Origin: Phalacrocorax aristotelis | Taxonomy: Eukaryota; Chordata; Aves; Suliformes; Phalacrocoracidae | DNA: 64,000 nt | Direction of reading: 5' to 3' | NCBI RefSeq assembly: GCF_949628215.1 | Contig: NC_134277.1 | Span: 121,746,963 to 121,810,962 of the forward strand | Part shown: positions 1 through 40,000 of the stretch, piece by piece | Layout: every line of letters begins with the position of its first letter | Position numbering within the stretch: position 1 is the first letter of the stretch | Notes under the pieces: model-generated | What the model was told of the DNA's origin: nothing | Databases searched by the model: none | The model's input: only the letters and a program-made list of their open reading frames with translations | Program-made: the position numbers and the translations under genes

Positions 1-75
1 TGTGAAGACTATAGCAGACAGGTTCAGAAATCCTTGGACAAACTGAAAATGGAGGAGGACATCAGGATGCTATGA
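1..75 (+). CDS. Partial C-terminal coding piece of an unidentified plus-strand gene
   Basis: Frame 1 is open from the window edge and ends in TGA at 73-75. It reads CEDYSRQVQKSLDKLKMEED and then IRML, a charged, heptad-like segment that would suit a coiled coil. No convincing donor follows, so it may be a terminal coding exon. An alternative is the weak donor CAG|GTTCAG at position 21, which would splice in phase to the exon at 403. Product not recognised. Confidence 0.35.
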   Translation, partial: CEDYSRQVQKSLDKLKMEEDIRML

Positions 76-402
76 TACAGCATCTTCTAACCGTTGAACA
101 TCTCACTGTCTACCTATTCAAAATATTCACTTACCGGTACAGTTAACAGTCAGTGATGTTGAAAACTGCCACTTTTTCTGGAGAAGTATCAGTAGTGCTT
201 ATGCATTGATTAAAAGCAAAGTAAATAGATTTTATTGCAATATTACAAGATGCTGCTTTTCTCAGGTTACAGCTCCTTTTGTACTTAAGTGCATGAAAAT
301 GAGAAGTTAAGCTTTAGGGTGCTGCGAGCACTGTGGGGTGGCAAGATCACAGGAGAAATGCTTTCTGCTGAAGAATGTTTTGGGGTCTTTTTCTCCCTGC
401 AG

Positions 403-474
403 GAGAGCCACACAGAAGAGCATGAAGGTGAAGAGCAAGTCCATGAACAGCCCCAGCAGCAGGAGGAGTACTGA
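403..474 (+). CDS. Terminal coding exon of an unidentified plus-strand gene
   Basis: A very good acceptor (TCTTTTTCTCCCTGCAG) precedes an open frame ESHTEEHEGEEQ-VHEQPQQQEEY ending in TGA at 472-474. The composition is Glu/Gln-rich and disordered. It could be the last exon of the gene entering from the left edge, or an alternative last exon to the piece at 1-75. I do not recognise the family. Confidence 0.5.
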   Translation, partial: ESHTEEHEGEEQVHEQPQQQEEY

Positions 475-3380
475 CTCACCCAGCGTCTCTGACAATTTTC
501 GTTTTGTGTGAGAACTTTCTTCTGGAGAACGGAACATGTGTGGCCTCAAACTTGAAATCAGTTCACTCCCAGTCTACCATTAACATTTATGTACCATAGT
601 GAGTGCCAGCCAACCACTGCATTCTGTACCCATACTTTGCCAAGATGCATTTGCAGACGTCTTCTTTCAGTGTATCTTCCCAAGAGAGGTTGTAGGGCTA
701 CATCACCTACTGTACATCACTGCAACTTCACCACTTGGCTGCTTGAGATTTGTTCTGCTCTTTTAAAACAAATATATATTTATTTTTTTTTTCCTTTTTC
801 GTCTTAAGTATGGTACACTTGTAACTTGTTCTAACATATTTATATTGGCATTTTGTGTGGCAAGAAGTACCGTACCACTAGCTGTGTCTCTCACTTTGTG
901 GTGCTTTCGCGTTTTTTCTAGTACATCTACCTTGGGGCATAAATTCGGTTGAACAATTGGAATAAAGGGATACAGTGGAAGTCATACTCAAGCCATAACG
1001 ATGAGGTGTGTTGTGGAGGAAAATGCTCGTGTTGCTCATGTTTGTTCCTTTCCTGCCTTCACAAAATGGGAGGCAGAGCATCTGTTTCACTAGAGGAGAT
1101 TTAAACCCCTGTGTTAGAAAGCTTGTTAGAAAGCTGCGTGGTATGTTTTTTGGCTTATTTCTGGAGGAACAGACATCCACTTAAGTTTTTTGAAAACCCT
1201 CCCAATTTCCTGACTAGTCAATAGACATTTCCCAGCTTTTCTTCCTTCCTGAGGAATCCAGTCCCAGCCTCCAGCTTCAGCTCTGCCTCCGCAGAGCTCA
1301 GTGCTAAAGGAGGAGAGAAATCTCCTTGACACAAGTGTAGCTGCAGGACACAATCTCTGCCGTCATACGTGGCTTCCCACCCCTCAGAAGAGGACAAAGT
1401 AGGCCAGCCATTTCTTTTCGCTATCCTTCCCCCCTCTGCTACCCCGGCCATACAAATATGGAAGACACAAAATTTCCTCACTAGTGCAAGGCATGGGGAA
1501 AAACCAGGAACAGCACTAGCCCAGAACCCCCCCAGACTCCCTTTAAAGTGGTGGTGGACACCTCACAAGTGGTGAGGCTGCTTCTGAAGCATGGAGAGGC
1601 AGTGAGGAGTCTTCCTGGAGACACAGCACGCATCAGAGGGGGACCAGCTGACTGAGGGACACAGAGCAGGTTCTGCACTTGGCTGACCTTCCTCTGGTGA
1701 GGCCAGCACAGTGCAGAACCACATTGGCCCTGGAGGTGTCCGCAGTGAGAGCGTTCCCTTCCAGTGTGGTCCCATCACCCTGTTCTAAATGATGGTATTT
1801 TATAAACAGAAGTATCTTGAAGTGTATAAAGCATTCCTTATTTTTCTCGTAAAACTGTGCATTGTAGTCTCTCTGAATATTTAATGCTTGGTATGCTTGG
1901 TCTCTCACTTGATTTTCCTAATTCTGGATTGTTATGCTGATTTAGCAGGTACACGGAAGTCCAATCCCAATTGGCAGTCACTGAAAAACTCCAAAGCCTA
2001 TTGAACAGCTTAGACCTTCCAGTGCTCCTAAAGTGTAAGTTCCCAGCTTACGCTTCCATAGAAGGGTTTTCAGTTAATCAGCCCCCAGCACTCACACGCA
2101 TGCGCAGTTTTCTGTTCCTGATCAGTCTTTTGCAGCTAAGTGGCTCTTACTTCAGGGCGAGATCCTGGCTGTTGTGTTGCACCACACACAATGTATAAAA
2201 TACTGTTAAGCGTTAGAACAGGTATTTCCAGTTCCTTGATTGCTTCCCCTGCTCAGCAGAAGAGTTTCTGGACCCTGCGGGCTGACGGTTTCCCAGCCCT
2301 GCCTCCAGCACTGACCTCACGTCCTACCCGGTGATGAAGTAAAAGCACTGCAACCTGCAGGCCAGCGCTTTCCTTTCCTGCTGCAATTGGTTACAAATAC
2401 AAATAAGGTCTGGTTTATAAAAACATGTATATTCCAAAATAAGTGTTTCCAAGAATCACCACAAATGGGGGAATTGTCATTTTTGTTGTATTTGTGTTTA
2501 TTAGAACATATGTACTTATTACAATTGTCATTGTAATAAACAGTAGTTCTTCATAATACTGTTGAACCGAAGAGCAGTTAGTAATTTTTTTCCAGTCTCC
2601 AGAACGTCCTTTAACCTGCATGGGATCTGTGATGGGGCAAGGCGTTTGGGATCAGGCTATGAACTTAATTTCATCAGCACCAGTCTCTGCTTACTGCAGT
2701 TCATCCTTCTGCTAATACTCGAGCAGACACGTGGAGAGCACTTTGAGGGAAAATGTTTCTCTCTAGGTGCGAATGGTTGGTTGCTGAGCTCCCTGGAGGG
2801 TTCGTAGCCAGGCTGTCGTGCCTCTCTCCTTTTCTCTCTTTGAAGCACATTTCTAAAAAAAATTTTAAAAAGCTGAACTTCATTTCCTGAAAATTCCTTA
2901 TGTCACATTTCTGGTCTGAGGACCACAGCTCTCTCACTGCTTGTATCAAGGGGGAAGTGACTGACGTAGGGAGCCGGGGCAGTAAAGTACCTCGTGGGCA
3001 CTAGAAATTTGGCTGTGCTGAGGGGAGAGCGATGCTCTGAAAGGGGAAAGGGTTGTCCTTCTTCCCCCACCCCCTGTGAGTAACCCATTATTCCGTTATG
3101 GTTTTAATATGCATTTGTAATTATCTTTACTAAATAGCACACCATAAAGCTTTGGTTATATATTAAATGTAAACTGAAAGGAATGTAAACATGTATTGTT
3201 AATTATAAACAGATAAGTAATGGCATAATAGATACAAAAAGTCTTATTCAGATGTATCAGTCATTTTACATTATCCACAGATTGTCGCATGGTAGAGTAG
3301 ATTTTTGTCTGAATATGTGAATAACTTGACTTGCGTTTATCTTTTTACATATTTAATAAAAAAATATATGTTAAAATCTG
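475..3380 (+). other. Probable 3' UTR of the plus-strand gene
   Basis: No coding exon was found here. AATAAA signals lie at 961-966, 2535-2540 and 3355-3360. The last is followed by AT-rich sequence and is the likeliest distal site. Which site is used cannot be told from sequence, so the UTR may be shorter than marked. Confidence 0.4.
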
Positions 3381-6300
3381 TCTAGCTCTAGAGACTATTC
3401 AAAACATTCTAAAATAATACTTTTCTGGTTTAAATACATATTTTTACTTCATTAGTGACTGCATATGGGAGCAGGGAGGAAAAGGCAGCTGCTTTAAAAA
3501 AGAAAGTTCACTTTTTCTATGTGTAGGTAGTATCTGTTTCCCCAAGAGCTCAGCAACTGTATCCCCTCCTGCAAATTAAAAATGAAAATGCATTGTATGT
3601 ACATGCATGTAAACAGAACATTCTTCTTTATGGTAAATGCTTTGTGATTTCAGAATACTAGATCTCTTGTTGTATCTCAGTTTTGAGGGGAAGAGAGTAC
3701 TAGAGCAAGGGCACCGAAGCTCCCAGTGGACTTCCCTTGCAATGGTCAAGTTGGTCAGGTATTCAGGGATGCATGTTCAGTGCAGTACCTAAAAGCCACC
3801 CATGTTTTAGATTAAAATATTAGGTTTTTTGAAGAAAATGAGGAAACTTCATTGTAATTCTCATAGCTCTGATCTGCTGGAGCATGAGCAATGTTGCTGC
3901 TGTAGTTGCTGCTAAATCTCCGGGGATTTGAGCCTTGGCTCCGGACCTTTTTCTGCCATGGGCTGAAGCTACCTGGTCGTGTCCCACCACCAGATGGTCA
4001 GGTATGATGGTTTCTTGGACCATCAATTATCAAGCAATAATGACCAGGAGTCCAGCCTAAGCCCACCCCACTGCCTTCGGGTATCACTGGGGCTGAGCCA
4101 CTGCCCAGCCCCACTTAGAGAAGGTTTCTGGTAGAGGGATGAGGGATGAGGACAAAGCCAGGACCAGAAGAGCCCATTTTCAACCCAGGTGCTCAGACGT
4201 GGGAGATTGGTGCTAGTGTAGTTGATTTCCATAAGACTAGCGGGAGGCATGTATTTGGGCTAGTGCGAATACTCAACGGCATAAAAAAGTAATGTATTTT
4301 CCAGTTCAAATAGTTGAAAACTTCCTGCCACAATGTTGTGACCAAAAAAAATTGCTGTTAGACTGTTGGGTCATCATACTCTCACCTGCCTTTGCAAAAT
4401 AAATTTGTGACTATACTGCCCTATTAACAAAGCATTTTAATTCACATTCATTGAACCAGTTACCATCTAAGATGGGTAACAATTCAATATATACACACTG
4501 TGCAATACATGATCTGGTTTTATACTTGTCATTATAGAGATCATAGTGACAAGTTGCTTTAAAAAGGAAAGTTATTTGCCGTGTCTTTCTATAGAATGTG
4601 AAAAAGCTGTCTGGAGCTTAATTTCCTTTAAAAGTTATACTGTATTTCTCTTTAGAAAGGTACAAGTGCAGGCAGGTTGTGGCAGTTCAAGTTTTATAAT
4701 TTCATTTAATTAAGTACTTCAAAATTCTCCATTACAGTGCATCAAACTGTGCTGCTTCTGTGACCCTTATTTCCAACTGTTTTATAAATAATGCAAGACA
4801 GAGGGAAAAGGGAATCCTGTCCTTCAGAGTTCCTCCAGTACAACCACATTCAATCCAGAGGTATTTTTGTTCATCTTATTCTAATTTTTTTCTTGTCAGA
4901 ACTTCCTCCCAATGCTTTTGATGGAAAGGTTAAATATAAGCTGTTGAAATAGGTGAGACACTTGTGGCAGTGTATCTGGTATTGGATGTAGTATTTAACT
5001 TCATCAAACAGATTGCAAGGGGCGTGCCTACATCAAACTCATTGTCCCCTTCAAACGCAGTCAGAACTACCTTTTTTAGCATCCCTCATTAAATAAACAG
5101 CCATCAGCCGTACTCTAAAAGAGTCCTTGGGCAGTTAGGGAGTGCCTTGGTGGAGACCCCATGCTCCGTGGGCATCGTGCAGGGAAGGGGCACAGCCACC
5201 CCACCAGCTGGGAGGAAGGCTGGAAGATGCCTCTTCTTGTTCCAGCTGCAGCCCCAGAGCTCAACTGCAGCAGCGCTGGAGGGTGCGGGAGCCTCCCTTC
5301 CCTGCAGGGCTCTCAGCAAAATCTCGACCCAGCATTAGCAGGATGACCTGTGTCCTCTGCCTGACTCGAACCTTAAGCTGCTTGAACTGTGATTGTAGTA
5401 TGATGCTCATTTGCGGGGTGGGACCCTCAACATGTTCGTTTGGTAGGTAGAACGTACATACTTTCAAACCATAAGAAACTTTACAAGTTCATGTGGTGTT
5501 TCTGCTTTGTGACGAAGGGAAGCTGATGTGCAGGGTTGTCCTCTGGTGCCAATGGTAAGGGCTGCCAGGGGAAATGAGCCCTCCCGACATTGTCGTGCAC
5601 CGCCTACTGTTAATAGGCGGTACAAAATTAAATTGAAGCTGTTCACAAAGATATGGCTAGTCAGTGCTCAGCCGAAAATATTAATAGGAGCTACTGATGT
5701 ACGGGTATGTTAACCAGGGAGAAAATGATCAGGCTACTGATAAAGCCAGAGAAATGGTCTAAGAACTGAAAAAGGTGAACTTAAGCCTCAGCAGCTCAAC
5801 AACTGCGCTTCTGCCCTGCTTCTGGCAAGTGATAGTTAACTAGTTAATAAACATGCCAGTCAGTCAGTCACATCCCTCTGCGCAAGAAATGTAATCTAAT
5901 GCTTACCTTGGGGAAAGTGGACAGATTGTTTCATTAATGCTTCAAGGCCACAGAGTCCCTCTGGCTAGGGCAGCGTATGAAAAGTGATGAAAACTCAAAT
6001 TCCTACTCCTTCCTCCAAGGCACGCAGGAAACCTACATCTATTATAGATGAAGCGAGTAGTTTACATCTGCATGTAAATGTATAATGTCTAAGGAAAGCT
6101 TTTCTTATCTCAATTTTTTTTTTGTCGTTATCTAAAACCACAAGAATTTGTTTCAAGCACACAGGCAAATAATTATTTGCTTAGCATTTTGCACTGATGG
6201 ATGAGGTTTGACTAACTAGTTTTGCAGTGAAATATGAGAATCTTCAAATGTTCGTTGGCCAAATTTAGTCTCAGCTGGTTATCTTTGCAAGGTATATTGC

Positions 6301-6945
6301 TTGTTGCTACCGAAATATCAACATTGTGCTTGTTACTGCCTAGAAAATAAGTATAAAGGCCAGCAGCTGCTGTACCGCACCTGCATTTCTGACAGATACA
6401 GGTCAGCTGAGACTCATCTTAACGCTGGGGAAAAAAGTCATACGTTTCCAAAACACTTTACTGTACCCTAGCTTCCTGAGCTCATTCTCTTTTCTTCACA
6501 CATTCATCTGAGGTTAGGAAAAGACTGAATCTACGTAAGCTCTTCAGGAGGTTGCATGGAAGAAATGAGTTGTGAGAAAATAAATGTGGAAAATGAAGCA
6601 GGCACAGATGTCTGAGTGGGAAGGACACACAGGGAGGGTTTGCATTGCCGGCGTCCCACTGGTGACTAGGCTGGGCAAAACCAGTGCTGGTTATAAACCA
6701 CCAAGGATCTCATGTAACCCAGCATGGATTTATCCAGTGCTTTGGACACAGTGGCGAGGAGGAAGACAAAAGCTTCAGAGCAGATAGTAACATGGCATTA
6801 GTGAACAGAATAAATATTAGCAGCAGAACAACATGGTAAACACTTCTCTGCCGGACAGGAATCTTCCTCTGAGATGATGCATCTTGCTGCATAGCTTATT
6901 GTCGCAGTGGTTTGGCTATCTGGAGTATTCTATTCTTTGGTTATT
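3381..6945. other. Spacer between two convergent gene ends
   Basis: Lies between the likely 3' ends of the plus-strand gene and the SELENOI-like gene. It has a GC-richer patch at about 5120-5350 and another AATAAA at about 5093 on the plus strand. No exon with good splice sites or recognisable product was found. Confidence 0.5.
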
Positions 6946-6967
6946 TTAATCAGATTAATCCCAACTA

Positions 6968-6973
6968 TTTATT
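6968..6973 (-). terminator. Polyadenylation signal AATAAA of the SELENOI-like gene
   Basis: TTTATT on the plus strand is AATAAA on the minus strand, about 60 nt after the stop codon. Cleavage some 15-25 nt further would give a 3' UTR of only about 80-90 nt. No second AATAAA on this strand was noticed close below it. A longer UTR using a variant signal cannot be excluded. Confidence 0.6.
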
Positions 6974-7033
6974 ACATCAGAAGAGTTGTGAATCGCCACA
7001 TCAAGTCTTACAGTCTGATCATAGTGCAAGCGT

Positions 7034-7099
7034 TCACTCCTGGACACGTTTCTTCAGGGAAAAGATGTAAATGTTCAAGTGCTCACTCAGCTGCCTCCC
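7034..7099 (-). CDS. SELENOI-like: SELENOI-like exon 10, C-terminal tail and TGA (residues 368-388)
   Basis: The acceptor GATTTCTCTTTAG follows intron 9. The exon reads GRQLSEH, then [14 protein letters not shown] and TGA. SELENOI has KQLSSH, FQIYPFSLRKPNSD and then Sec. The TGA at 7036-7034 (codon 389) therefore aligns with the Sec codon with no gap. Beyond it the frame reads only T-L-A-L before another TGA, with none of the SELENOI end. I read the first TGA as the real stop, as no SECIS was seen in the short 3' UTR. Confidence 0.88.
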   Translation of the reverse strand, partial: GRQLSEHLNIYIFSLKKRVQE

Positions 7100-10000
7100 C
7101 TAAAGAGAAATCACGGAGATTAACAACCAGTTTTGTACATGCTTCACAATTCACCATCTCTCCTCTCCCGGTCAGGGAGGGGAGGACCTGACCACAGTCC
7201 ACATGTATTTGGGGACCTATGAGTACATGGGGACCTACAAGTATTCAAGCAAGAGAGCTGTGGTCTTTACATTCCTCTTGCAGCACACTGAGGGGAAGTT
7301 AAATCGCTACAGACCAGATTCACAGATGACAAACTGTGATGGAGCTCAGCCCCCTCAGTCAATAGTGAATTTTGACCAGGTATTTCCATTCTGACCTTCA
7401 CTGACTGGCCTGTATCAGTGCTGGGGTAAAATCTGCTATGATGCCAATGTCTGCTGGCAAAAGGCTTCTTTCAAAGAAAAATCCTTACATTCTAATGGTT
7501 GTTATTTTAAATTAAATCTTAAATCTTAAGATTTAAGTATCTTAAATAAAAGAATGCTGACCAACTCTCTGTGAAATGAGATCTTTGCCAGGCAAAGGGT
7601 TTTATCTAAAAGCAAACCTCCATTAAGACACTTTCCTAAGCATTATTTGACAATACTCTTTAGAAAAAAGGGCATTAACTGAGAAAAAATGAATTTAAGC
7701 AATAATTCAGATGACAATAAATGACAAAACTGATACCTAGCAGACAAAACAATGCACTAGTAAGACTGAATGAACTGGAGAAACATTCATGTCTCCAGTT
7801 TGGGAGATGCTAACAGAGGGCCAAGAAAAGATTAGAAACTGGGACACGTATTGTGGTTGCAGATTCAAATCAAAGTTAATCTGATTTTTATGAATTCTAT
7901 TCATGGCATTTTACCCTCCTAATTTTTTAGTCAAGTAATCTCAGGAAGAAGAAAGGGAGAAAAAGGGGTGGGAGTATTCACACCATGTGGGCTAACTGCT
8001 ACATAAAACCAGCCCATAAGTATTCCGACTGTAATGGGTTTAAAGCCGAAACCAGTCGCCTACATTGGAATAATTCAAGTCACTGAGGTTGCTGCATGTG
8101 CAAAAAGGCACTGCCTGCAGTAAACTGATTATTTTTTAAACTTTTGACTAAATAAAACAATACAAAGGAAAAAAAAAAAACATAACTGAACATTCAGACT
8201 CCTGGAAAGCATTCCTAGACCCCATCTTCCTCCCCACCCCAGCACAGCTCTCCCGTGGCCACTTTGGAGGTGCCCACTCACCACGCAGACCCCGTAGTGC
8301 ACGTGGGCGGCCGTGAGCAGCATGGTGAACATGGCGAGCACCGCTTCTTCCATCCAGCTCAGCAGCCCAGAGATGGCTGCGTAGACCACCAGTGCCAGTG
8401 GGAAGAGGAACCAGTGGAAAAGCTCTGGCCGGGTGCTGCTCATCTGGCAGATGATCACCTTGCACTGTCAGAGCAAAAGGCGCCAGGTGAGAAGTGCTGG
8501 GTCAGCCTGGGGTCTGGGCAAAAGTACATCCATTTTCTCCACAGGTTGCTTTAGGTGAGGGGAAAACAAGGCTAGAATTCAAAATGGGGCTTTTTTCCTG
8601 GTGTGAAGACTACTATAGGTGCACCTTTGTGCCTTATTGCCTGTGAGTCTTAAAGGTCTTTATTACAAGTAATTTAAAATACACACTTATATTCTGGAGA
8701 CAATGTTTTGACACGCTTTGCTTTATGAGCCAAAGCACACCCTCACAAAAAGGGAGTTGTTTGACACCTCACACTTTCACACAGGCTCGTAAAGTTGTGA
8801 TCCCAAATCAAGTGTGGCACCACTTAATCACTGGGAGGACATACTGGTATTTTAATCCCATGGCATGACGAAAGTATATTCTGGTTCCTTGTATAGAAGG
8901 GAGGGAAGGTAATATATGCCACTTTTAAATCCTGTTTTTCTTTTCTAGCACTCCTTCATGTACTAAACCACCATTTTCTTGGCTCAATCATGGCGGTGGA
9001 CTCCCTGGAGATGTAGCTGGGGGCCCAGGGAAAGGGCTCCCACTCGGCAGAATGGCAGAAAAAATGAATGTACGGTGCATGGTTTAACTGAAAGCAATTA
9101 GCTTAATTTTACTGAGTTCTTGAAATTTAATTAGTTGAGTTGAAGTTCAGATTTTTAAAACCAGTTAAGTGCACCAAAGTGTTTCACCTGGATTTGCCTC
9201 CTTAAGAAATGTCTCATGTACACTATTCTTTTTAAGGAAAAAAAAAGGAATTTAGGCACAGCTGAAATGTTTTTTTGATGTAAGTTTCTATCAAAATTTC
9301 AGTGTGGTTAAAAATAGATTTTATGTATCCTGAAAACAGTAAAAGAATGAAAAATTCATTCCCAGTGCAGTGCCTGAAAGCTTATGACAGCAGCAGGGGT
9401 CTGACCATAGGGAAAAAATACTGGATTTACTGTATGTGCTGTAGAAGCTGAAGAATGCAAAAGTAAACCATGAAAAAAATAATAAACTTTCAATAATGCA
9501 AGAAGTAAGCATTTGTACCTAATGTAAATATTTTTGCTTACAATGCATTATCAGTACCGATTCTGAATTTTTTTAATAACACTAGTTTTATGAATCCATT
9601 GGGAATCTTTCCAGAGGGTATCAGAAATTGCTAAACATATTATAATTATATATATATATATTTATATATATATAAATTATATATATATAAATTATATATA
9701 TTATATATATAAATTTTTTTATATAATTTATATATAATATATAATAAATATATAGTTTTTCTGGCTGAATAATCGCACCTGTCCAGAGGTTGGATTTCAC
9801 ATTGTTTTAAACTGTTATTACACTGTGTTAAGTACAGTACTCAATTTTTCATAAAGATTGCTTATTAATATCTGGAGTAATTCACCCTCAGTGTATCACA
9901 GGACTGCAAAATGGACTATGCGCTGTTCCTTATTACCCCTGGTCCTGAAGCACTGACTCACACTACAAGTGAGGCAAAAACAGCGTTAGGAGATGAAAGA

Positions 10001-13000
10001 GCTGGAGTTTGGAGAGGCAGACTGGAAAGAAAAGGTAAGGCTGCAGGACTTTGCTCTGCACTTCTCCATGCCCTTCACCCACACCTTGCAATGCTACCCT
10101 GCTCCTCCTGAATTTAAACCTCTAGCAGCTGTGGCTGGTACCCCTGGGTAGGTCCTTAGCATCTTCTCTCTTCCCATCTCCCCGGGGAAGAGCTCCCTCA
10201 GTCTGAGCTGCCCCTGCTACTCACCCTATCATTGCACAGCTACGAGGCCAGGTCTGAGACCAGGCATTTAGCCCAAGGGATCTGCTGGGCAACTAAACAT
10301 GCTGTCAAAGGCATGAGACATTCAAGCTACTGGCAGGTAGAGACACATGAGCTGCAGAACAGATAATGGAAACCCAGTGTGTCAGAATATCATGAAGAAG
10401 AAAAGCATTGCCGTGACAAGCCTTACTCTGAAGCTGGAGGAAACGTGTGTGTGTGTGTGTGTGTATGTGTGTGTGTATAAGGGACCAGAGGAGATGAAAG
10501 GAGATACAGGCTTGTTTTTCACTTTTAAAATGTTATAAATTCCAACTAACACCCATACATTTTTAATGCTTGCTTTTAAAATGTTAATAATTTCCACTAA
10601 CATGCATACATTTTTAATTCACGCAAACCGTTAACACTGGAGTAGATGTTTCAGTAAAAGCAAAAACAAGGCCTGAAGAATATGTGTTGCATTCCCTGTT
10701 TAATAAACCGTAGTCTACAAAGAAACTTCTGGTTTGCCATACCATTTTATTTCTGCAAGCATCCTGCCACAATTGCTCTCAGTTGGTTAAGATGTATGTG
10801 CAGAACCTGCCATCTGCCAAACTCTGAAAGCACCTTCCCCACTAGTATGAAATAACTGTATTGCTCATTTAGCAATCTACACTGTCCTCTTAAGAAAAAG
10901 GGTAGACTAAGTAATGAAAAAATGCATACAATAAAACTTATACTTCTGAAAATAACCTAACTGTTGTCAGATGAAGTCCTTAAGATGGAACCATTTGATT
11001 TGTGACCCTCAGAAACATACATTTGTAGGCTACATCTAACAAGCATCACAATTATGATTTCTCTTCCATTCCTGAATACAAATTTCTGGATGGGTTATGC
11101 TTTCTTTTTTAAAATCCTGCATTTTCAAAGAGCGCTCTCATAATGCAAGGCACTTCAAGCCTCTCACTTTTTAAATTGGATGTAGTGTTGCTCAGTGACA
11201 CAATTGTAGATGGTGTTGGAGACTATTTTCCTCAAAATGACATTAGTCACTATCCTTTAGGGTATTTTAGCGTTAAATGGAGGAATACCTTTCTACCTGG
11301 CTGCAGACTCCTTGCCTCTCTCCTGGCAAGAAGAGTGGCGAAGGGCCTACTCCGGCAAAGAAAGCCCTGGGTTAACTGCAGTGCTCAGCATTACTGTTTG
11401 GCTGACTTTGTTATTGCTTCATAGAGGTTTATGTTGCTTCACAGGTATTAAAAGGGGGAAATTGGTCACAATGATGTGGTATGGGTGAAACTAACCTGTG
11501 GGCAGAGGGCCATCGCAAGGCCTCTGCACCTCTTTATGGCTTTCCCTAAAAACTGCTTATTCTGAACAGTGATAGGAAAATGCAGGATCAGCTGAGCTGT
11601 AAGATACAGGAATGCGTCTACCACACTAACGGGCACAACTGCAGGTGAAGGCTACAAGCACCCCTTACTCTTGTTGGTAAATCAATGCTTATGTTGAGCT
11701 TTCTTTGACTTTCGACAAATCCCCAGTTCTGCCTATGTATTGGGGAATATTTGTTACATTTCTGGGAGTAAGGGCTCCCCAGGGCTGTTCATAAACTCCC
11801 CGGAAAAAAAAGAATGCTCATTAAAATGTTATGCTGCAGTAAAGTAGGTATTGCAGTACTGTAAGGGTCCAGACAACTGCTGTGGTGTATTTTTATACAT
11901 GAGAGGATAACACAGAGGTAGAAGAGCGGTGAGATTCCAATGAGTTTTAGCTACCATTTCTGTTCCCTTTTGTTTATTCACATAGAAATAGAAGGCTAGC
12001 TCTAAATAATACCACCACCACTGACAACAACATACTTACAATAACGTTTGAGAAAGCAACCCCAACCATCCATAAAAACAATCTTGGTTGCTTTGCTAAT
12101 ATGTTGCCTGGAGATAAAACCACCCAGACTGTAAGAAGAATGAACAGCAACAGAGGTGACACAAGAGGTAGGAGTCCTTCATACAAAGAATCATTCTTCA
12201 GCGTTTTCTTTAAATGTGCTCTGTAAATAAATACAATCATTTTATGGAGTAAGAAAACTTATCCGTTCCATTTCCGCACAGTAACTTCGAACTCCAGCCT
12301 AAACTCAGCCCAGAAATTCATCTTGCAACACAACTACCTGTGCAAATGTGCTAGATATCCAGACATTTTACTAGAAATGTTAACATTTATTTCTGGGATA
12401 AAATTATATAGTTTTATTCCGGTAGCTTCTGGTCAGCTTCATCAGCTCATCATTACACACAAAGTGAGCTGCAGTAGCTCTGTTGTCATAGTTGTCATCC
12501 AAATGATGACTGCAGGCTTGTGGTGAATTCAAAGTATCTATTTTTTTAGAGGATGAAACTCCTGACATGAGGCATGAAATTACTTCAGCCAATATGCCCC
12601 ACGTTTTCAGTGGCAACACAGTCAAGCACATGGCTGGCAGGTGGGGTTGTTTAGGTCCAGAGCTGATGCTTCTAGACAATCCTGCACCATCACCAAACTC
12701 CAGGCTAAAGGGGAGGCTTTTTTTGCTAATTAGAGGACAGGAAAATTAATGATGCATTGTGTTTTCTTGGCTATTTTAAGCTGTCTTTTAAAGGTAGTAA
12801 TATTAAATACATTAAATTACTGTATTTTCTGTCAGCTAGGAAAAAGGTAATTGTAAGATCAAGAGCTTCTGCATCTATCTTGCATCCTTCTCACTCAGGC
12901 GAAACTCATTGAGAGGTTATAAAAGGCGTAGGAGGTTCCATTTACTGAAGTTCACTATCATTGAACCATTTCTTCACACCAATAGTTCAGAAGCGCAAGT

Positions 13001-16000
13001 CTGTGTTTGAAGTGTACTGGGAAATGTCCTGTTTAAAAATCTCTGAACATGTTTATTTATAGAATCAGCTAGACAAAAATCCAATATCTCCAATATCCTT
13101 CTCATTCCAAAAAAGAATATTTGTCTGATAAAATAACAACCGAGAACAGGCAGCAGGATGAAGAAAGAGAGGAGATGATTGGAAAACTCAAATTCCTCAT
13201 CACCAATTAGCTTGTGTGTGCATCCTTCAAGCAACCCTGACTGGATATTTAGAATTATTGTGTAGTTCTGTTCAGAGGTATGATAAAACCACTGGAAGGC
13301 TTGAGAGACACCTGATGTGGCAGGTGAGTGAAATGAGCTAGCAAATACTACAGGGAGGCAAGCAGCATTAATAAAAATAGGCCATCAGAGTATAAACTAA
13401 CCATGTATAAAATGCCTAGGTGCAGCAAGCCAACTCTTAGATGTAATCACAGCTTACCACCTGCCTAGCCTGTATCTGATGGCAATTGTCTGCAGACTTC
13501 ATACAGAGAAGAGTTTTACAGAAGGATCTGGAAGACAATAAAGTACTTCACGGAGTGCAGAATGATCAGCAACAGAATTTTACCTAGCACAGGTAGAAGT
13601 TACAAATCACATTTGACTGTGAATAAAATGCCATGTTTATAACTACAGAGCTTTCATCAGTTCAGTATGCTGGACCAGCATGAGACTGCCTGGAGAATGG
13701 CAAGTGAAAGGAGAAGGAGAGGTGTTCTAAACATGGAAAATGAATGAGTCAGATTCTCAAAATTGACCAGAAGAACTTTTTACTACATTATCAGGACAGC
13801 ATCTGGCTGAAAGAAGCTAGGCTACTTCAAGCATTACATTTATTTCTCAAGTGAGGAAACTGTTAAATATACAGAATGAAATGGGAAGGGCTAGAACTTA
13901 TTTAATGTGAATTAACTTACCTGTGAATGTTGTACAGTGTTTGAGGAAATGAAAGAAATAAACTGAAGCCTGGAAGAGAAAAAGATTCATATGTAATGAT
14001 ATACAGTCCTGCTACACTGATGACCTCAGAGTTTTCTTATATCATAACAAAGCTAGTGTGTTATTTTAAAAATGACTCAGTATTCCTGTACTCATTTCAG
14101 GATATGAACTGAGTTTGGAGGCTTCAGGCAATAATAAAACCTTCCTCATTTTTCCAAAAGTTAGCTGCTAGAAATAGTTGCTGACACAGATTTTCTCCTG
14201 TAATGAGTGACAAGACCAGAAAGGTTTTTAAAAATTCTAATGCAGTTAGTAGGTAGGATCAGTTATTTGTCATACGGGTTCCTCTGCTGGACCCAAGAAA
14301 TATAACACCCCATTTTGCATGAGCTGCTCACTGTTTATGTAGTAAAAAACCCCAAGTCTGACACCAAAAGCTTTCCAATGGAATATATAAAGACAACCTG
14401 AAACAGGGCTGCCCACATTACTGGGGAAATAACAGGTTTATCGTTCAATATACTAAAGTTCAACTAATTATCTGCTTTGCTGATACAGTGGCTGAAATGA
14501 ATTAGTTTTCATCATATGGCCATCATTTGAACGAGTGAGGTTTTTTTAACTAGTTTTTTTTAATACAGCTGTGTCCTTTCTGGAGCTCAGCTTTAACCCA
14601 CAAAGGACAAGGAAATCACCTTTGCTAACGCTGTATCTCTCTGCATTGCTGCCAGTATTACCAACACTGCTGCTGGCAGCCCTGGAGCTGCCTGAAGACC
14701 CAGTTATAACCCATCTAACACCTGCATCGCAAATACGTTGGGCCACCCACAGGTCAAAGAACTCCTCCAGCAAGAAGTGGAAGTTCAAGGTTTAAACAAA
14801 AAAGTCAAAGTATTAGTCAGCCTAACTGGTGAAAATATATATAATAATTTTTAAATCTATGACACCCATTTTCTATGTGTTTCCCTGCAGAGCTCTTTGG
14901 GTTTGGTTTGGGTTTTTTTCCCCCACTTTCTGTGTATCATGGGCTTTTCCCTGGTTTGTTTGCTGCTTGGAGATTGCTGTGGGTAGCATATTTCAGACAG
15001 GCTTTTATATTATAAGGCATGAGGATTGGTTTTGGTGCACTAAATTAATACATAATTCCTATTTTGTTGTGGGCAAGAAAAGCACTCTGATATTGTAAAC
15101 CTTCTGTTTTCACCTTAAAAAATCTCATTTAAGAAACACAATGTACTGTTTGTGCAGAAAAGTAGCAAACTTTAATCTCATTATTAGAAATAAGGAAAAA
15201 TAAGAATGAACAGAGGAAAGAACTCCTTTCAGATGACTTTGTACTGGGCTAATGTAACATAACAGACTTCCAAGAAACGTCACTGTTTACCATTCAGTCC
15301 TCATCAAAGATCTACCCAAATGTTTAGCATGCTCTGGCCAGAGTGGCAACTCAAGAGAAGGAAAACTAAAAAAAACAGGAACAGTGGGGATCAGGATTGT
15401 TGGAAAACAGAAGTAAAAAAGGATGCAATAGATAATGTATTTCTCCAGTCTTTCTGGTTACCTTTCAAAGAGAAGGAAACAAAGAATTGGGAAAAAAAAA
15501 AGATTATCCAGCCTGTAAATTATTTCACATATTGTATTTTTATGTGTTTATTTCTTGGTTTTGCTTTTTAAAACAAGTAAGATAAGGAGATCTGCTTCTT
15601 TACCATGGCAGGAACTCTGTATCAAACAGCTGAAGGATGTGCAATTGAAGTAATATCCCAAGTACTCTGTAAATATATTTCTAAAATTTGCAAGCTTGGT
15701 TCCTTCACAATGGTCTGTGTTTAATGTGCACTCCAGTTAGCTATGTTTTCTATTAGGCAGGGAGGGCTAGTTCAATAAAATCTTGAGTTACGTACAGCAG
15801 TTCCAACATCTGTATCACATTAGAGCAGACATGAGACAAAACATTGACTCTTGAGGTTAAATCTAAATTTCCTGCTGCAATCCTGAAGTTTGATTTGTTA
15901 GGAGAAAAGCAACCAAGAGGAACAGAAATAGAGACTAGAACTAGAAATAGAATTCAAAGAGGAATGGTTGCCAACAATTTGTTATTTTTATGAAGTGCCA

Positions 16001-22000: not shown

Positions 22001-25000
22001 TGATACAAATGGATCTGGCTGAGCAAGACACACTTGCTGCAGCCTCGCTAAGGGAGAGAATAATTTAATCTTCCCAGCTGCTTGGCCCTTGGTGTAGGCT
22101 AGACCGATACCTTTTCTGCAGTCACAGTGAAGTCCTGCTGTTTACTATGAGTTTCTAAGAAGTTTATATATCTATATTCACTATACACAGGTTATCCAAT
22201 GATAACCACCTTAAGTTGAGATTCAAACCTGGGGTGAAATGGCAGTGCTTTCTGGATCAGCACGACCCTCACTGGAAGGATTCTACTTTTTTAATATTTA
22301 AATGTAGTGTCTGTTTTTAAGAGATTTAGAAAGTACTGTGACAATTTTGTGATATAGAGTCAACCAAGATAATTTCTCGCATACTTTCAACACATATGTA
22401 ACTATAATTAAGCTGCAAAAGTTGCCCTGTTAATGCCATTGTGGATAGTGTGCGAGACACAATGTTTTTAAAGAAATCTTTTGACTCTTACTTATGCCTA
22501 CTCTGCTTGGGACAGTAAGGGAAGAAATACTCAATTCTCTGCTCACAGATCCATTCATGCAAGCACACCACATGAGGCAGAAGCAGTACTTCTTTCTAAT
22601 GCTAACGGAATAGTCCATCAAGCCTTGCTTTGCAGATGGTTTTGGTAAAGTATGAAAAAGGCTGCTCACTTCTACAGATTTGATGACTTTGACATGCTCC
22701 CCTACCACAAACCTTCCTAATATGTTGAACAGTTTGAACTAAACCTTCATCCATGGCTTCCCAAGCACAAGGGAAGCCATCAGCGTACTCACTGAATGGG
22801 CTGTCATGTGCCTTAGCGACAGGAACAAAAGCAGCGATGTGCATAGCCTGGAACAAGCGTGTTCAATGGACTAGCCCATGCTAGCACCTAACGCCAACGC
22901 AGGCATATCCTGCCACTTCTGGGAGAGCCAGCATCCCTCTCTCCTGGACTTGCGGCACTCCTTCAAGAGCACAAATCACTCCCTATTCCTCAGCGCCCTG
23001 CCAGCCACCAGAGGGCATTTTATAGCTACATCTGCCAAGCTGAATAATTCGTTGACTACTGAAAAGGCAACCACTATTTTTCCCTCTTCCTTTCTTCTTT
23101 TCCTCAGCGTGCCAAAAACAGGCCTGACAAAAAAAAAAAAAAAAAAAAGAGGCTGTGCAATCTTGGCCACGCAGAGTCTTATACTCTGGGTAAAGCACAA
23201 AGGACTGTCAAAACCATGTCCTTGTACATGCTACTTATTAGAAAGCACAGCCTGAACGCAGGGTCCTTTCTAATCTGGGAATTCTCGGAAGCACTGCTGA
23301 GCTGGAGGCAGTACCTGCTGAAGACCTCTCCATGGGAAAGGGTAGTAGGAGCACATGTCAATCAGTGGATTCAAAAATCCCCCCCAGAATGCTCAGATAG
23401 CTCGTGGTTAGAGTCAGCGTTGGGTGAGCACCTATGTCCAAGCTCTCCATCTGGCTCAAGGACTGAAGACGTTTCTTGGTATGTAAGTCTAGACTGCCTG
23501 GGTCAAACACTTTTTTTGGTGCCCTCTTCTCATCACCTGTATGCTCATAAAAATCCCTAAAATTTATATGCTATTTTCTTCACCTTCCAAGCAACACATC
23601 AAAGTCATTTTGCATACACATATTTTTATCTAGGATTCCCATGTTTTAATTCATTAAAATGTAATTGCTCTTGTTCTCGGTCTAGCTATAGCAATTGTAA
23701 AATGTTTGATGCTTATTTCAACTACATTGACAGTATCAAATAATGAGCAAATCGGCTACTGCTGTGTGTGAAAAACGCATCACTTCCGTTCAGAAGGGAA
23801 TTCTAAAGAAGCGCTTAGAAACCACCTGGCTCTTTTTCAGATTTACAGTTGTGCCTCCTAAGATTATTTATATAATGCCTTTATTGTTTCTATTCATCAT
23901 GTTTTGGAGCACAGCGTGCTGCAGGCCAAAGCATTAAACTTATAATATATGTAAATGTGAGTGACGTTTTACCTGAGTGACACGAGTTCCTGAGACTTTG
24001 AGAGGCAGCCAGCCAGCCGGCACACTGCACGCAACTGCACATGCAGGTAAGGAACATTTTCTGTATTATTTGTGTGCAACAATTCAGTGAGGAAAAATGT
24101 TTCCAAAACAATCTACTTTTTTAAAGTTTTCCAGTATTAGCCCTTTTAATCAGCTCTATTCATGTGTTTTTTGGCCTAGCCAACACTTAGAACAAGAAAA
24201 AAAATTATGAAGGAAATGTTAAGAAATAACTGATCAAAATAATTAAAAAGCAGTACAGTTTTGCATGGATCCAGACACTTACCTATAAGCAGGATTACTA
24301 ATGCGTCTGTAATGTAATAACCAAACAGAAAAGGCTTCTGCCAGACTTCCACACCAACAGCACCGGTGAGCAGATATGCTGCTATCAATACCTATATAAA
24401 AAGGATAATGTATTCTCAGTCCTTTACTTCTAAAGGCATAGAATTTTGCTTATCATCTTAATACAAATGCAAGAGTAAAAAAAAAAAAAGAATCTGTTAT
24501 TTTCCTCCTGCCTCCATTTTACACAGCCTTATGCTGCCAGCCCAAAACAATCACTTCTGAGCAGTAAAGCAGCTTCCAGGGTTACCAACAAAATTATTTC
24601 ATATGTATGAAATATGGTAAGCAAGGAACTTCCCTGCTAGTATGTGCACCTGTTGCATGTGGTATTACTGACTTACCTTTTCAAAACACCTAATTTCTAA
24701 ATCCCTTCATAATGCCAGGTGTACCCACTGCACATGCACTTTCTTGTATTTGCATACGGACTTCAGGATTAGCAATGTGGTAATGTGGTTATTTCTGCAG
24801 CTCAGCCCCCTGAACTGATTGTATCAGAATACCTGAGAGGGGTAAAAAATCTAAGCTCACCTGAAATAATAAAAAAATTCAATTGAATGTGAAGAAATAA
24901 CAAGAAGGGGAGGGAGATGAAGTCTTCCCTGATTTTTAATTTGTTTGACAGATAACATCATTACAGGACACTAAAAGAAACACTAGTCAAGCATCAATAG

Positions 25001-31000: not shown

Positions 31001-34000
31001 TCAGCCTCACCACAAATCTGTCAGGCAGGGAAATGTTATTACCATTATTTCCCAGATGGGAAAACAGTGACAGAGGCAGAGGTCACTAAAAGGCACTGAC
31101 AGAGTTAACAATACTGCTCTGCTAGTTGATACCCATATTTAACCACTAATACAGTTCGGATGCTGTAGCAATCCAACATTCACATGTATATCTACAGCGA
31201 TCATCTGAGCAACAAGTGAAATTGGTTTGAACATAGCTATTCCTCTCCTGCTGGAAGAACTTCACTAAGAAACCTTACACAGACATGGCTGAAACTTGTA
31301 GACCAGCTGGCTGCCTAATGTCTTAGTCCTGAGCCAACTTCTTCTCCCAGAACCTATTTTCTAGGGGACAAAACAGATGCACAACAGCTGGACCACCATC
31401 TCTGAGTTGTTCTCAAACCACTGGATTCTGATTATGTTTACAGCAATACATCTGCAGCCATTAATTCAAATACTATATTTCCATTAAAACACGTATTTGA
31501 ATATTTGTCAAACTTCTTTTCAATTATGTCTATTTGGCTGTACCTTTCATCTCATGCCTGTGACAGGAAGCTTGGAAGACTGGGACTGTGCTCTTCAGGC
31601 TGCAAGAGCCTGGCTATCTAAGAAATAGATAAGCCAGCCCAGAAATCGCAGCACTGGGCCCTTGGCAGTGCAAGGGGCTTGTTACTGCTACTGCTGCTAT
31701 TCACTTGTGCACTGAGGCTACCACTCACTGTGGTGCCCTGGGCATGTTTCTGAAGAGGTCCACCCCAAGGTAGGGGTAAGCCATTCAAGAACTCATCTGG
31801 GGTTTGGCTGTGGGCTGACGTGTAATTCATGTTACTGAACGCCATACTCAGACAGGAAACCTCTATTGGTATGACTTGGACCTTTTTTCAAGGCTAAAAC
31901 TCACTTGACAACAGTTAATGCTCGCTGTATAGGTACAATGCTATTTCCATTATCACATTCAGTGTAAAAGCTGGTAGAACTGAGAAGGTCTAGTATTGTA
32001 TAACTGTATAATTACTGTTAATAAATACTACTTGGACTAGTTCACATCGTGTCTCAGAAACTAGTGTTGGTGGGAGAAGTGCTTATGGCTTCAGATAGCA
32101 TAATAATTTTTTGTTAATACCCCAAATCAAATGCAGTTAAATTACATTCTCCTAGGCACTATCCAACTGCTAGGCTTGCTGCAAGCTTTTTTTTTTTCCT
32201 GCAAGGCAGTGACTCTCTGATGCTGACAATTTGCTTCAGAGCATCCCTCTTTGCAAATGCAGGAAATATTTCTGAATTACTTTTAGGGTTATGCTATTTC
32301 ATATTCAAAATCTTGGCCAAATACATTTGCCTTGAGCTCTATTTTTCTATTTCTGTAATATTATGAAAACACTAACATAGTTAAAAAAATAAAACCAAAA
32401 CAGGAATGCTAAATACTTACCACTTGGCTTATATCGTATCCCCAAGGAAGAAAAAGAACTCCTGTGTTATATTTCTCCCAGTGTGAACACATAAAGTTAA
32501 ACAACACGATGCTTAAATATATATACATTGTATATACGGAAACTCCAGTCTTCCCATTGTCACGGGAACAGACAGAAAAAAAAGAAAGCACAAAAATGGA
32601 GGTAGCCCAGCTATCCAGCCCGTGGTCAAATAACTCTCCCAGAGGAGTACTGGACTGAGTCCTTCGAGCATGTTTCCCATCTATAGAGTCTAGAAGGATT
32701 GGGAAAGTAAAAGAAATAAAGAATTAGAGCACAACAGGAGTCACTTTCTTCACAAACACTTCACTATATATAACATATATATAAAACATAAATATATATA
32801 ACATATATAGCCTATATAATGTATGGGAAAAATACACCAATGACAGCAAACTGAAGCACAACAGTCCCTTCAATACCAACATATTAGGATTGCTCGTAAA
32901 ATATTCACTTCGGTTACCAGTAATTTTTCTGTCCTTACCTCAACTCTTAAACTAAATGCCAACTTCCTTACAAGGTTCAGAAAGACATTTATAATTACTT
33001 GTCCCCAGTGGTCTTTAAACACTTTAATGTCATTCCCTGCAATCGGTTTCTTAATTAAAGTGCTGAAAAGTGCCCATAAGGCTTCTCGCCTGTCCAGTGG
33101 TGTTCTGGACCCTCTGAGACTTCAGGCCACTTGTGGGGTAGATTCACTAAGGCATTTAGGTTGCCTAATGCTAAATGCCTCAATGACTAACAGTTATGTG
33201 GCAGCCTCAAGGAGCAAACTTCACAAAATTTATTTTTGTGTGTGCCTACATAAGATATTTTAAACAGTCTTCTGGTTGAAATCTTAGGATTCAAGAGTTG
33301 GCAGTGTGCCCAGGTGGCCAAGAAGGCCAACGGCATCCCGGCTTGTATCAGGAATAGCGTGGCCAGCAGGAGCAGGGAAGTGATCGTGCCCCTGTACTCA
33401 GCACTGGTGAGGCCGCACCTTGAGTGCTGTGTTCAGTTTTGGGCCCCTCACTACAAGAAGGACGTTGAGTTGCTGGAGCGTGTCCAGAGAAGGGCAACAA
33501 AGCTGGTGAAGGGTCTAGAGAAAAACTCTTATGAGGAGGGGTTGAGGGAGCTGGGTTTGTTTAGCCTGGAGAGGAGGAGGCTAAGGGGAGACCTTATTGC
33601 CCTCTACAACTACATGAAAGGAGGTTGTAGTGAGGTGGGTGTTGGTCTCTTCTCTCAAGTAACAAGTAATAGGACAAGAGGAAATGGCCTCAAGTTGTAC
33701 CAGGGGAAGTTTAGACTGGACGTTAGGAAAAATGTCTTCACAAAAAAGGGTTGTGAGAGATTGGAACAGTCTGCCCACGGAATTGGCTGAGTCACCATCC
33801 CTGGAGGTATTTAAAAGACATGTAGATGTGGCACTTAGGGACATGGTTTAGTGGTGAACTTGGCAGTGCCAGGTTTACGGTTGGACTCAATGATCTTAAA
33901 GGTCTTCTCCAACCTAAATGGTCCTATGATTCTAAGAACATCCTACTGTTAAGATGAGTTATATCTTCATCAGTTTTAATACTTAAGTGCTTGAAAGATG

Positions 34001-37000: not shown

Positions 37001-40000
37001 ATCGTTGAGGGACAAAGATTTTTATGAATCCCAACAGCAATGACTGCTTCTATGTAATGATTTCCATTGTTTCCCTAAAACAATTTGAAGTTTCAAAGGA
37101 GATAAGAGCAACAGTCATATAACCTCTAATATATCATTTAAAATTGTCTTTTTTTTTAAGCATTATGGCTGGTTTTTGTTGCTGGTTTGGGTTTTTCACA
37201 TCTCAGAGAAATGTTTTAGAGACAGATCAGTAATTTATCCACTATCCTCTTCATTTTGATAGTGCTGACCACTAATGAACTGGTAGATAAAATTATATGA
37301 AGACGTCAGACATGTAAATTGTTTCATCATACTTTACCTAAAGCATAAGCACAAAAGGTGGTAAAAGCACTGAACAGCCACACCCACGTGGGAACAAGTC
37401 CAGGACTGGTACCTGAAATAAATGGGGTAGTAAGTCAGCGTAACAGTGGTTAACATCAAAGAAGTCCACCGAGATATGCATATACATATGAACAAGCTGC
37501 CACTGATTAGCCCACTACGTCAAACAGATTGAAATATTTGGTTTTGACCCTAAGTCATCAGTGACCTCTATCAAAGAAGCAATGAGCAGGCTTGAATGTG
37601 CTGATACCATAAAGGAGAGAAGACAAGGGCAAGATTTTTCGTCCTGCAGTGACTCCAGTATTGCACAAAATAATGATAGTAACTAGCCAAAAATTTTCAC
37701 AGGTCATGGGAAGAGTACCTATCAACGAATTAGTTAATGTTTATGTAATATCTAAATATTTAAAAAAATGGAGTTTTCATCCACGATCATTCTTATAAGC
37801 ACAACCGTGGATTTTGTATAGCACTTTTACCATGCAGATCTGAAAAGGAAATTTTTGTCCTTAGGCTAGGACAGATATTAGCACCTTTTTTTTTCCTTGA
37901 AAAAGGAAATTGATCTGGAAAAGAAAGCTGAATTGGGCAGAACCCAGGGTTCTGTTATTGCTCTGCTGATTGCAATAACCCAAGGTTATTGTTACTCTTT
38001 TAAAGACATCAATCCTTTTTCCAAAGAGCATTCTATTTAACTTAAACATAATCCAATAAGGACTCTACCAGCACTAGGAACAACCGTATATGCAAAGCCC
38101 TCTCAGGTTTCTGGCATTCGGCACCGAACACAGCAAATACTTGCACACAGAGGTGCGTCATTGCTGAACAGGGAGATGCCAGTACCTAAAGCAGTGCCCT
38201 GACCACCTTTCTCTCAAGGCCTCATCTTGCCACTCTGAAAGAAAAGATGACAATTCCTGACTCCTAGCTGCAATTTTTCAAACTGTAGAATGAAAACCAG
38301 CTGTCCAGGAAATTAAGTCTTTTATTTCTGATCCTAGGTATGGGATTGATATATGATACTCAAAAGGCTTATTAGGCTGCATGAACGTTTTCAATCAATT
38401 GAAAAATGATGGGCACTGTTCTCGTGTGAAATCAAGAATAAGCTTGCACATAGAAATCTCAGCTCTAACAGACTTAATCACCATTTCAAATGCCTTCAAG
38501 TTTAACGTGTATCTACCAGGAATGTGTCGAGATAAAATTATCCCATTAAAAGATCTGTACTGGATGCTCTTTTATTACAGAACTTAGTAAATATCAGCTC
38601 CATTGATAAAAAACCAAGTGTTTAATGACAAGGCCAGATAACTACACAACATGCCAGTCATGAAAACTTAATGCTCATACAGGATTATTTTTTAACTAAA
38701 ACTGCTAACAAGTATCCCTGCCTCTAGAATTGTTGTGATAAATGTACAAACAGCTCACACCAAAGTGTATAAGAAATAAAAGGCAGCAAAAAAAACCCAA
38801 ACGTAATTGTTTCAGGAAATAAAAGTGTTGAGTCTTCACCAAATTGTCTAGTTTCAAGAAAAACTAAGATTTGTATATGTTAATCACTGGTGAGATGCTT
38901 AATACTTTCTGTAGGCTCCAACAGCTGGTCTGAGAAGCTCAGAACTGAACACGCCCTATACTCAGGAACAATCAGCTCCAAAAATCTTTTGATTTGGTCT
39001 GCCATGAGGTGCAAATATGGATTTGGAATTCAAAAGTCATAATTTCAAGAGACATTTGTTTAGAAACTGTTGGTTTTTTTTTTTTCTAGAAGCAGTCTTG
39101 AAGGGGGCAGTGGAGTAATGAAAGGGAAATTAACTCATTCAGGCATGGATTTAGGTATTAGGAAATGTGAAACCAATGAAAATTTTATTAAGAATGTCAG
39201 GGTGGGTTTTGGCAGTGTATTTAAATCCTGGCATACACTTTAAATAAAATGAGATATTATCACAGACTTCAAGCAGCACATGCTGAAACCCGTATTTGGG
39301 AATGAAATTAAATAAGGTTTTTCAATAAAATGATCTAAATTTAAAATGCCATGTGTGAGGTCAGATCCTCCTATGCACATGGAGCCTCATTAAGGGAATG
39401 AGTGGATGATCCAAGTATCTGATACCTCCCTGTATCATTCAGAACTATGACATAAGAAGCATACTAATTCTGACAAAATTACAACATGAGGATGTTTACC
39501 TGAGGCAGTGTAGTCCCAGTCATAAAAAGATATTAGAAAATAATTAACTAAAATCATGATAAATCCAGAGAACGTTAACATGTTGGGAGCAATCCACAAT
39601 GGCACTACCTGTTAAAAAAGAAAGAAAAAAAATCTAAGAAAAATTATATTTCAAATTCTAAGTCTAGTTTTAATTAAATATTTTTTATTTTTTATCAGGA
39701 AAGGAGAAGCCCATATATGACATCACCAACATTCAGATTTGTGCGTATTTTCCCATTTTCAAAAAAATAGTTTTCATTTCTGAAATTTATTTTCAAAGGT
39801 AATTCTTTTGCCTGATCTTTGCAACTGCAGCAGAAATGTAATTTTAAAATGTCGTATTTCTTATGTTATATACTATCCTTACTTTCCCAGCCACCAAGGA
39901 AAGCTTCTTGCAATTGTGTGTATCACAACTGAAAGAAGACTGCAGCACCCCAGTGTGGTAATTCAGCATCTACATAGCAGGTTTTTTGAAGCATTCTATT

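Follow-up and report, generated by a model that had tools for sequence, protein, structure and literature searches.

Introduction

Selenocysteine (Sec) in the ethanolamine phosphotransferase (EPT) SELENOI, also named EPT1, has been reported, in the available parts of PMC3316567 and PMC3473315, only from vertebrates, where it lies in a C-terminal extension that is absent from homologues. The role of this Sec is not established in the available sections of PMC3316567 and PMC8540796; recombinant SELENOI truncated before Sec retains EPT activity according to both, and that Sec sets a preference for CDP-ethanolamine is a speculation of PMC8540796. Three cysteines, C133, C229 and C310, are specific to SELENOI, and C133 is the proposed partner of Sec, a link that is put forward as a conjecture (PMC3316567).

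GPX5, GPX7 and GPX8 (PMC12822975, in the part available) are, like the gene described here, non-selenium paralogues that stand beside a selenoprotein, but in them Cys replaces Sec, whereas here a stop codon takes its place and the tail is absent. A Cys form of the SELENOI extension was not found in PMC3316567. The C-terminal growth of SelP offers a likeness of another kind, the last Sec codons of one lineage lying at the stop signals of another (available part of PMC3473315, citing Lobanov et al.); there, however, TGA is set against TAG or TAA between species and in a protein with many Sec residues, whereas here TGA is set against TGA between paralogues of a one-Sec enzyme. CEPT1 and CHPT1 resemble the present gene in belonging to the CDP-alcohol phosphotransferase family and in being non-selenium enzymes.

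The gene lies in a stretch of 64,000 nucleotides from Phalacrocorax aristotelis, hereafter the window. It shares with SELENOI the exon plan, the catalytic motif, the last exon as far as the TGA, and both Cys305 and Cys310; unlike SELENOI it has no Sec, no 10-residue tail and no SECIS element that we could find, it carries Thr for Cys133 and Phe for Cys229, and it reads UGA ACG where SELENOI reads UGA CUA G. We regard it, on its sequence, as a complete, constrained and probably selenium-independent second copy of SELENOI, predicted to be ethanolamine phosphotransferase-like.

Structure of the gene

The exons were located, collinear on the minus strand, by tblastn with a human SELENOI query. Its Sec387 and its cysteines 133, 229 and 310 agree with the positions given in PMC8540796 and PMC3316567. 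The assembled model is a complete ten-exon gene that runs from 63277 to 7034 of the window, with an uninterrupted coding sequence of 1167 nt, 388 codons before the stop, and nine introns, all of them GT-AG (Table 1). Four candidates for the micro-exon passed the splice and frame constraints, and the one chosen scored 35 against 1 for the next best. Pfam PF01066 matches the predicted protein (E 5.3e-10), and the family motif is listed in the form given in the available part of PMC10650576; of the other long open reading frames of the window, eight were searched against Pfam at E up to 0.01, and none of these eight had a match.

Table 1. Features of the SELENOI paralogue and its surroundings, in window coordinates.
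Feature	Position	Strand	Description
Exon 1	63221..63277	-	ATG 63277-63275, 19 residues; also matched in the genome-wide protein search (C2:121810177-121810239)
Exon 2	46502..46570	-	69 nt, equal to SELENOI exon 2
Exon 3	39500..39608	-	109 nt, equal to SELENOI
Exon 4	37338..37412	-	75 nt, equal to SELENOI
Exon 5	32421..32689	-	269 nt, 263 in SELENOI
CDP-alcohol phosphotransferase motif DG(X)2AR(X)8G(X)3D(X)3D	32613..32681	-	intact, 23 residues
Thr codon ACC, aligned with Cys133 of human SELENOI	32601..32603	-	by alignment; site as in PMC3316567
Exon 6	24283..24391	-	109 nt
Exon 7, micro-exon	13921..13969	-	49 nt, 15 residues and split codons; equal to SELENOI exon 7; Phe at the Cys229 column
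Exon 8	12040..12220	-	181 nt, equal to SELENOI
Exon 9	8282..8464	-	183 nt, equal to SELENOI; Cys at the SELENOI Cys310 column
Exon 10, last coding exon	7034..7099	-	66 nt including the stop; acceptor TTTAG, 21 residues, TGA
TGA stop at the SELENOI selenocysteine column	7034..7036	-	next bases ACG
AATAAA	6968..6973	-	60 nt behind the stop
Downstream stretch SECIS-free by the scans used	1..7033	-	7.0 kb; SELENOI as positive control

Two other features of the window were recorded. Inside intron 4, positions 33254-33787 of the plus strand are an interspersed repeat with at least 40 other genomic matches at 88-92% identity (40 of 8252 candidates scored); its frame has no Pfam match and is similar to the 3' end of a CR1 LINE. 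At 4008-4124 on the minus strand there is a weak SNORA57-like match; it scores 22.6 bits (E 0.05), short of the gathering score, which is 40, and is probably due to chance.

SELENOI and its relatives in the genome

The window belongs to contig C2 of an assembly of 1.28 Gb. Searching this whole genome with the paralogue protein at E up to 1 returned 19 places, namely the ten exons of the window gene, five places on C3, two on C21 and two on C1. The C3 locus, at 1.14-1.16 Mb, is SELENOI: it has 80.8% identity to the human sequence over 349 comparable positions, one of its exons being partly masked and exon 1 not found, its last exon carries the TGA and the conserved tail, and a SECIS lies 1.3 kb downstream. 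Behind the Sec codon (5723-5773 of this locus, L008) the ten tail residues are followed by RSAEVL and then by a stop, which makes the bird protein six residues longer than the human one. By sequence the C21 locus is identified as CEPT1, and the C1 locus, which CEPT1 and CHPT1 chains matched about equally, was assigned to CHPT1 by elimination. PF01066 also matches at a fifth place, at 86.8 Mb of C3, which shows no similarity to SELENOI or to the paralogue. Relatives were also sought elsewhere: none of three pattern matches on viral contigs with the paralogue as query and none of 17 on genome contigs with human SELENOI as query was confirmed, and blastn of the last exon found no match in phages.

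The paralogue has 52.3% identity to human SELENOI and 53.9% to the SELENOI of its own genome, against 27.0-27.9% to four PDB chains of the CEPT1/CHPT1 type, and so is by sequence nearer to SELENOI than to those proteins. Exon lengths are equal to those of SELENOI in seven of the eight comparable exons (2, 3, 4, 7, 8, 9, and 10 up to the TGA), exon 5 being the one that differs. The identity and the shared exon plan bear out an earlier note on this DNA, which had called the gene a SELENOI paralogue.

Comparison of the last exons

In both genes the last exon measures 66 nt from the acceptor through the TGA. When exons 7-10 are paired by position, 159 codons run without a gap and are followed by TGA in both genes; the opening base of the first SELENOI codon had to be assumed in this pairing, the preceding exon being masked at its end. 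The earlier note had aligned the last exon to SELENOI without a gap and had put the TGA exactly at the Sec position; comparison with the C3 gene of the same genome upholds both statements. Of the 63 nucleotides ahead of the TGA 40 are identical in the two genes; of the 33 that come behind it 5 are identical, where chance would give about 8 of 33. The frame behind the paralogue TGA reads ACG CTT GCA CTA TGA, that is TLAL and a stop, residues as unlike SELENOI as they had been said to be.

These figures bear on whether the paralogue stop could have moved to the Sec column independently and merely happen to be TGA. The last four residues before it are hardly conserved (RVQE here, whereas SELENOI has PTPD in the bird and PNSD in human), and stops in the family do shift by a few columns: in the same genome CEPT1 ends 3 columns later with TAG and the CHPT1-like gene on C1 ends 8 columns later with TGA, so that, counted from one shared His, the family members end at 15, 18 and 23 residues. 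Because stop columns vary in this way elsewhere in the family, agreement in both place and codon exceeds the usual chance, and for a coincidence of the two we arrive at a rough, inferred figure of 1 in 20. An independent move would have had to reach the exact column with the same codon, at equal acceptor-to-TGA length and behind 159 codons without a gap, and we consider it improbable; the two TGAs are, we infer, homologous rather than coincident.

Search for a SECIS element

Since the Rfam SECIS model is too weak to be relied on alone, we combined searches at low threshold, with SELENOI as the control, with a structural scan. The SECIS of SELENOI was matched by RF00031 at L008:7007-7076, 1.3 kb behind the Sec codon, at 22.4 bits (E 1.4). 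This falls short of the gathering score, 35, and the match is the second of nine sub-threshold Rfam matches in its 10 kb, so that by Rfam alone it is not distinguishable from chance matches. The structural scan, which was written with this SECIS already in view and is hence tuned to its type, gives this place its best score as well, -23.7 kcal/mol. In the genome-wide Rfam search, of which the best 150 of 27,099 candidates were scored, the only SECIS returned was at G000:C36:66025317-66025380 (L055).

Behind the paralogue TGA, where positions 1-7300 of the window were searched at E up to 10, RF00031 had no match, and in the 7.0 kb given to the structural scan no SECIS was recognised, the one weak candidate having -4.6 kcal/mol. 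This candidate was rejected: candidates arose in 9 of 20 shuffles, and 7 of these were more stable. An ATGA...TGAT match at 7022-7000, just behind the TGA, was also set aside, its stem being by eye too short for a SECIS. A search of the downstream sequence for SECIS elements had been suggested in the earlier note; carried out with these two scans, both of which pick up the SECIS of SELENOI, it found none in 7.0 kb, and the AATAAA that had been placed within about 70 nt was measured at 60 nt behind the TGA. Residues 388-397 of SELENOI, searched downstream on the minus strand by tblastn at E up to 100, had no match, which is a weak test with ten residues.

Because no SECIS is recognisable and the base after the UGA is A (UGA ACG), the paralogue UGA very probably acts as an ordinary stop. 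For it to be a Sec codon still, the gene would need a SECIS that is distant or non-canonical, or else a different terminal exon. The weakness of the Rfam model, which gives even the SELENOI element 22.4 bits where 35 are asked, leaves some room for this, as do scans that covered 7.0 kb and 3' ends placed from sequence alone; but only TLAL separates the UGA from the next stop, the AATAAA follows closely, RF00031 has no match, the best structural score compares with that of SELENOI as -4.6 with -23.7 kcal/mol, and the tail residues, on the weak test just described, are unmatched downstream. That the paralogue is a selenoprotein today is therefore very unlikely indeed.

The Sec codon of SELENOI, by comparison, stands in the context UGA CUA G (L008:5720-5726, G000:C3:1155720-1155726), as read in this genome only. 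This matches the consensus published for mammalian stop codons with high readthrough (PMC4359377, in the part available), and in SELENOI the context may be recent.

Age and constraint of the paralogue

Over 331 codons, a comparison that leaves out two inserted codons as well as exons 1 and 6, identity to SELENOI is 0.644, 0.773 and 0.381 at codon positions 1, 2 and 3, which shows that the paralogue protein is constrained. Human and bird SELENOI differ from each other at 67 sites; at these the paralogue agrees with human at 11, with bird at 13 and with neither at 43, and a recent bird-specific duplicate was rejected on these grounds, the two being matched about equally. Where human and bird SELENOI agree, the paralogue has the same residue at 175 of 282 sites; at the other 107 the state of at least two of the four outgroups is found in the paralogue at 20 and in SELENOI at 16, so that neither copy is merely a decayed version of the other. 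A maximum-likelihood tree of seven sequences places the paralogue outside human plus bird SELENOI with support 96, on a branch of 0.47 against 0.39-0.42 for SELENOI.

Taken by sequence, then, the paralogue is old, constrained and evolving only slightly faster than SELENOI, and the duplication is older than the split of birds and mammals. That the gene is a recent pseudogene is scarcely credible, given 388 codons with neither frameshift nor premature stop, intact splice sites and catalytic motif, and a branch only slightly longer than that of SELENOI.

The chromosomal surroundings offer a suggestion, and no more than that, of the two rounds of vertebrate duplication. Ferlin_C has nine matches, on C2, C3, C4, C12 and C13, and Nuc_rec_co-act has three, on C2, C3 and C13; the ferlin- and NCOA-family matches on C3 lie at most 0.7 Mb from SELENOI, those on C2 lie 10-34 Mb from the window on a contig that makes up 13% of the assembly, and PRKDC is 270 kb from the window. 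The suggestion assumes the names given here to the ferlin-family, NCOA-family and PRKDC genes, and the human paralogon. The paralogue may be a 2R ohnologue of SELENOI.

SELENOI-specific cysteines

The paralogue keeps one of the three cysteines specific to SELENOI, C310, and at site 133 its codon is ACC where SELENOI has TGT. The four outgroup chains, which are CEPT1/CHPT1-type chains and not invertebrate EPTs, have T, T, T and I at site 133 and Ala in all four at site 310. The paralogue thus resembles at site 133 the chains 8gyw (CEPT1), 9uet and 8ul9 (both Cholinephosphotransferase 1; we take the species to be human and yeast, respectively), while 8ero differs in having Ile, and it is unlike all four at site 310.

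Since C310 is common to both copies, part of the SELENOI-specific cysteine set is older than their split. In the simplest history C310 would have arisen before the duplication and C133 after it, in SELENOI only, a polarity that rests on column counts in one genome, the human sequence and the outgroup chains.

Discussion

The reading that we prefer, with a probability of about 0.5, is that the UGA stop of the paralogue is the ancestral one, and that in SELENOI this stop became a Sec codon. The common ancestor of both copies would already have ended at a UGA stop; SELENOI would later have gained a SECIS, recoded the stop to Sec and grown the 10-residue tail, together with Cys133, and the paralogue would have retained the ancestral end. 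If C133 came with Sec, as the conjecture of PMC3316567 implies, then the common ancestor ended at UGA and it was SELENOI that recoded the stop; and an extension with Sec that is reported only for SELENOI, and only in vertebrates, would have been added past an older end. A fuller version, in which the ancestral UGA stop, perhaps leaky in UGA CUA G, came under the control of a new SECIS and the protein was lengthened, Cys133 arising as the redox partner, we hold to be slightly less probable than an even chance.

The earlier note had proposed the reverse, a paralogue that lost Sec by losing its SECIS and letting the UGA act as a stop. In full, the common ancestor would have encoded Sec, and in the paralogue the SECIS would have been lost, the UGA would have reverted to a stop, the tail would have decayed, and Cys133 and Cys229 would have gone later. 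One part of this stands, in that no SECIS was found and the UGA is very probably a stop; an earlier Sec in the paralogue is not established, C133 and C229 being absent and Thr standing at 133 as in three of the four outgroup chains. We know of no Sec-bearing orthologue of the paralogue.

Several observations nevertheless sit well with such a loss. The TGA is at the exact Sec codon, Cys310 is common to both copies, and a one-step truncation could be survived, since EPT activity persists without Sec (PMC3316567 and PMC8540796, in the parts available). A copy without Sec could drop C133 and reach Thr by chance, and after so old a split a relic of the tail is not expected; no relic of tail or SECIS was found, which counts against the loss, although such an absence is expected under it as well. 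The loss also requires Cys133 to have changed to exactly the residue of three of the four outgroup chains. We rate a loss of Sec as a serious possibility, with a good deal less than an even chance, and below retention of an ancestral stop; the odds, and with them the proposed direction of change, are a matter of judgement.

Among the papers listed by literature searches we saw none on a SELENOI paralogue with a UGA stop; the 2025 vertebrate selenoproteome survey of Tico and Mariotti may already include one. The lone text match to 'selenoi2' proved to be a reference number. Presumably there is a database entry under a name like 'ethanolaminephosphotransferase 1-like', and the gene may well be annotated already; what is unusual is the same-codon pair of stop and Sec.

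Because truncated SELENOI retains EPT activity, it is plausible that the paralogue protein is a multi-helix membrane ethanolamine phosphotransferase that works without selenium, its activity and substrate preference being judged by analogy. A sister enzyme that is intact, lacks Sec and occurs in one animal together with SELENOI would be a natural control for the function of Sec, one that goes unmentioned in the available parts of PMC3316567 and PMC8540796, and swaps of the tail between paralogue and SELENOI would show the role of Sec, for example in CDP-ethanolamine preference. The same-codon pair has a further use: with outgroup genomes it allows a selenoprotein's birth or death to be dated, and it can reveal how stop and selenocysteine codons interconvert. 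If the paralogue does retain the ancestral stop, it would show, in a living animal, the state that came before a selenoprotein was born.
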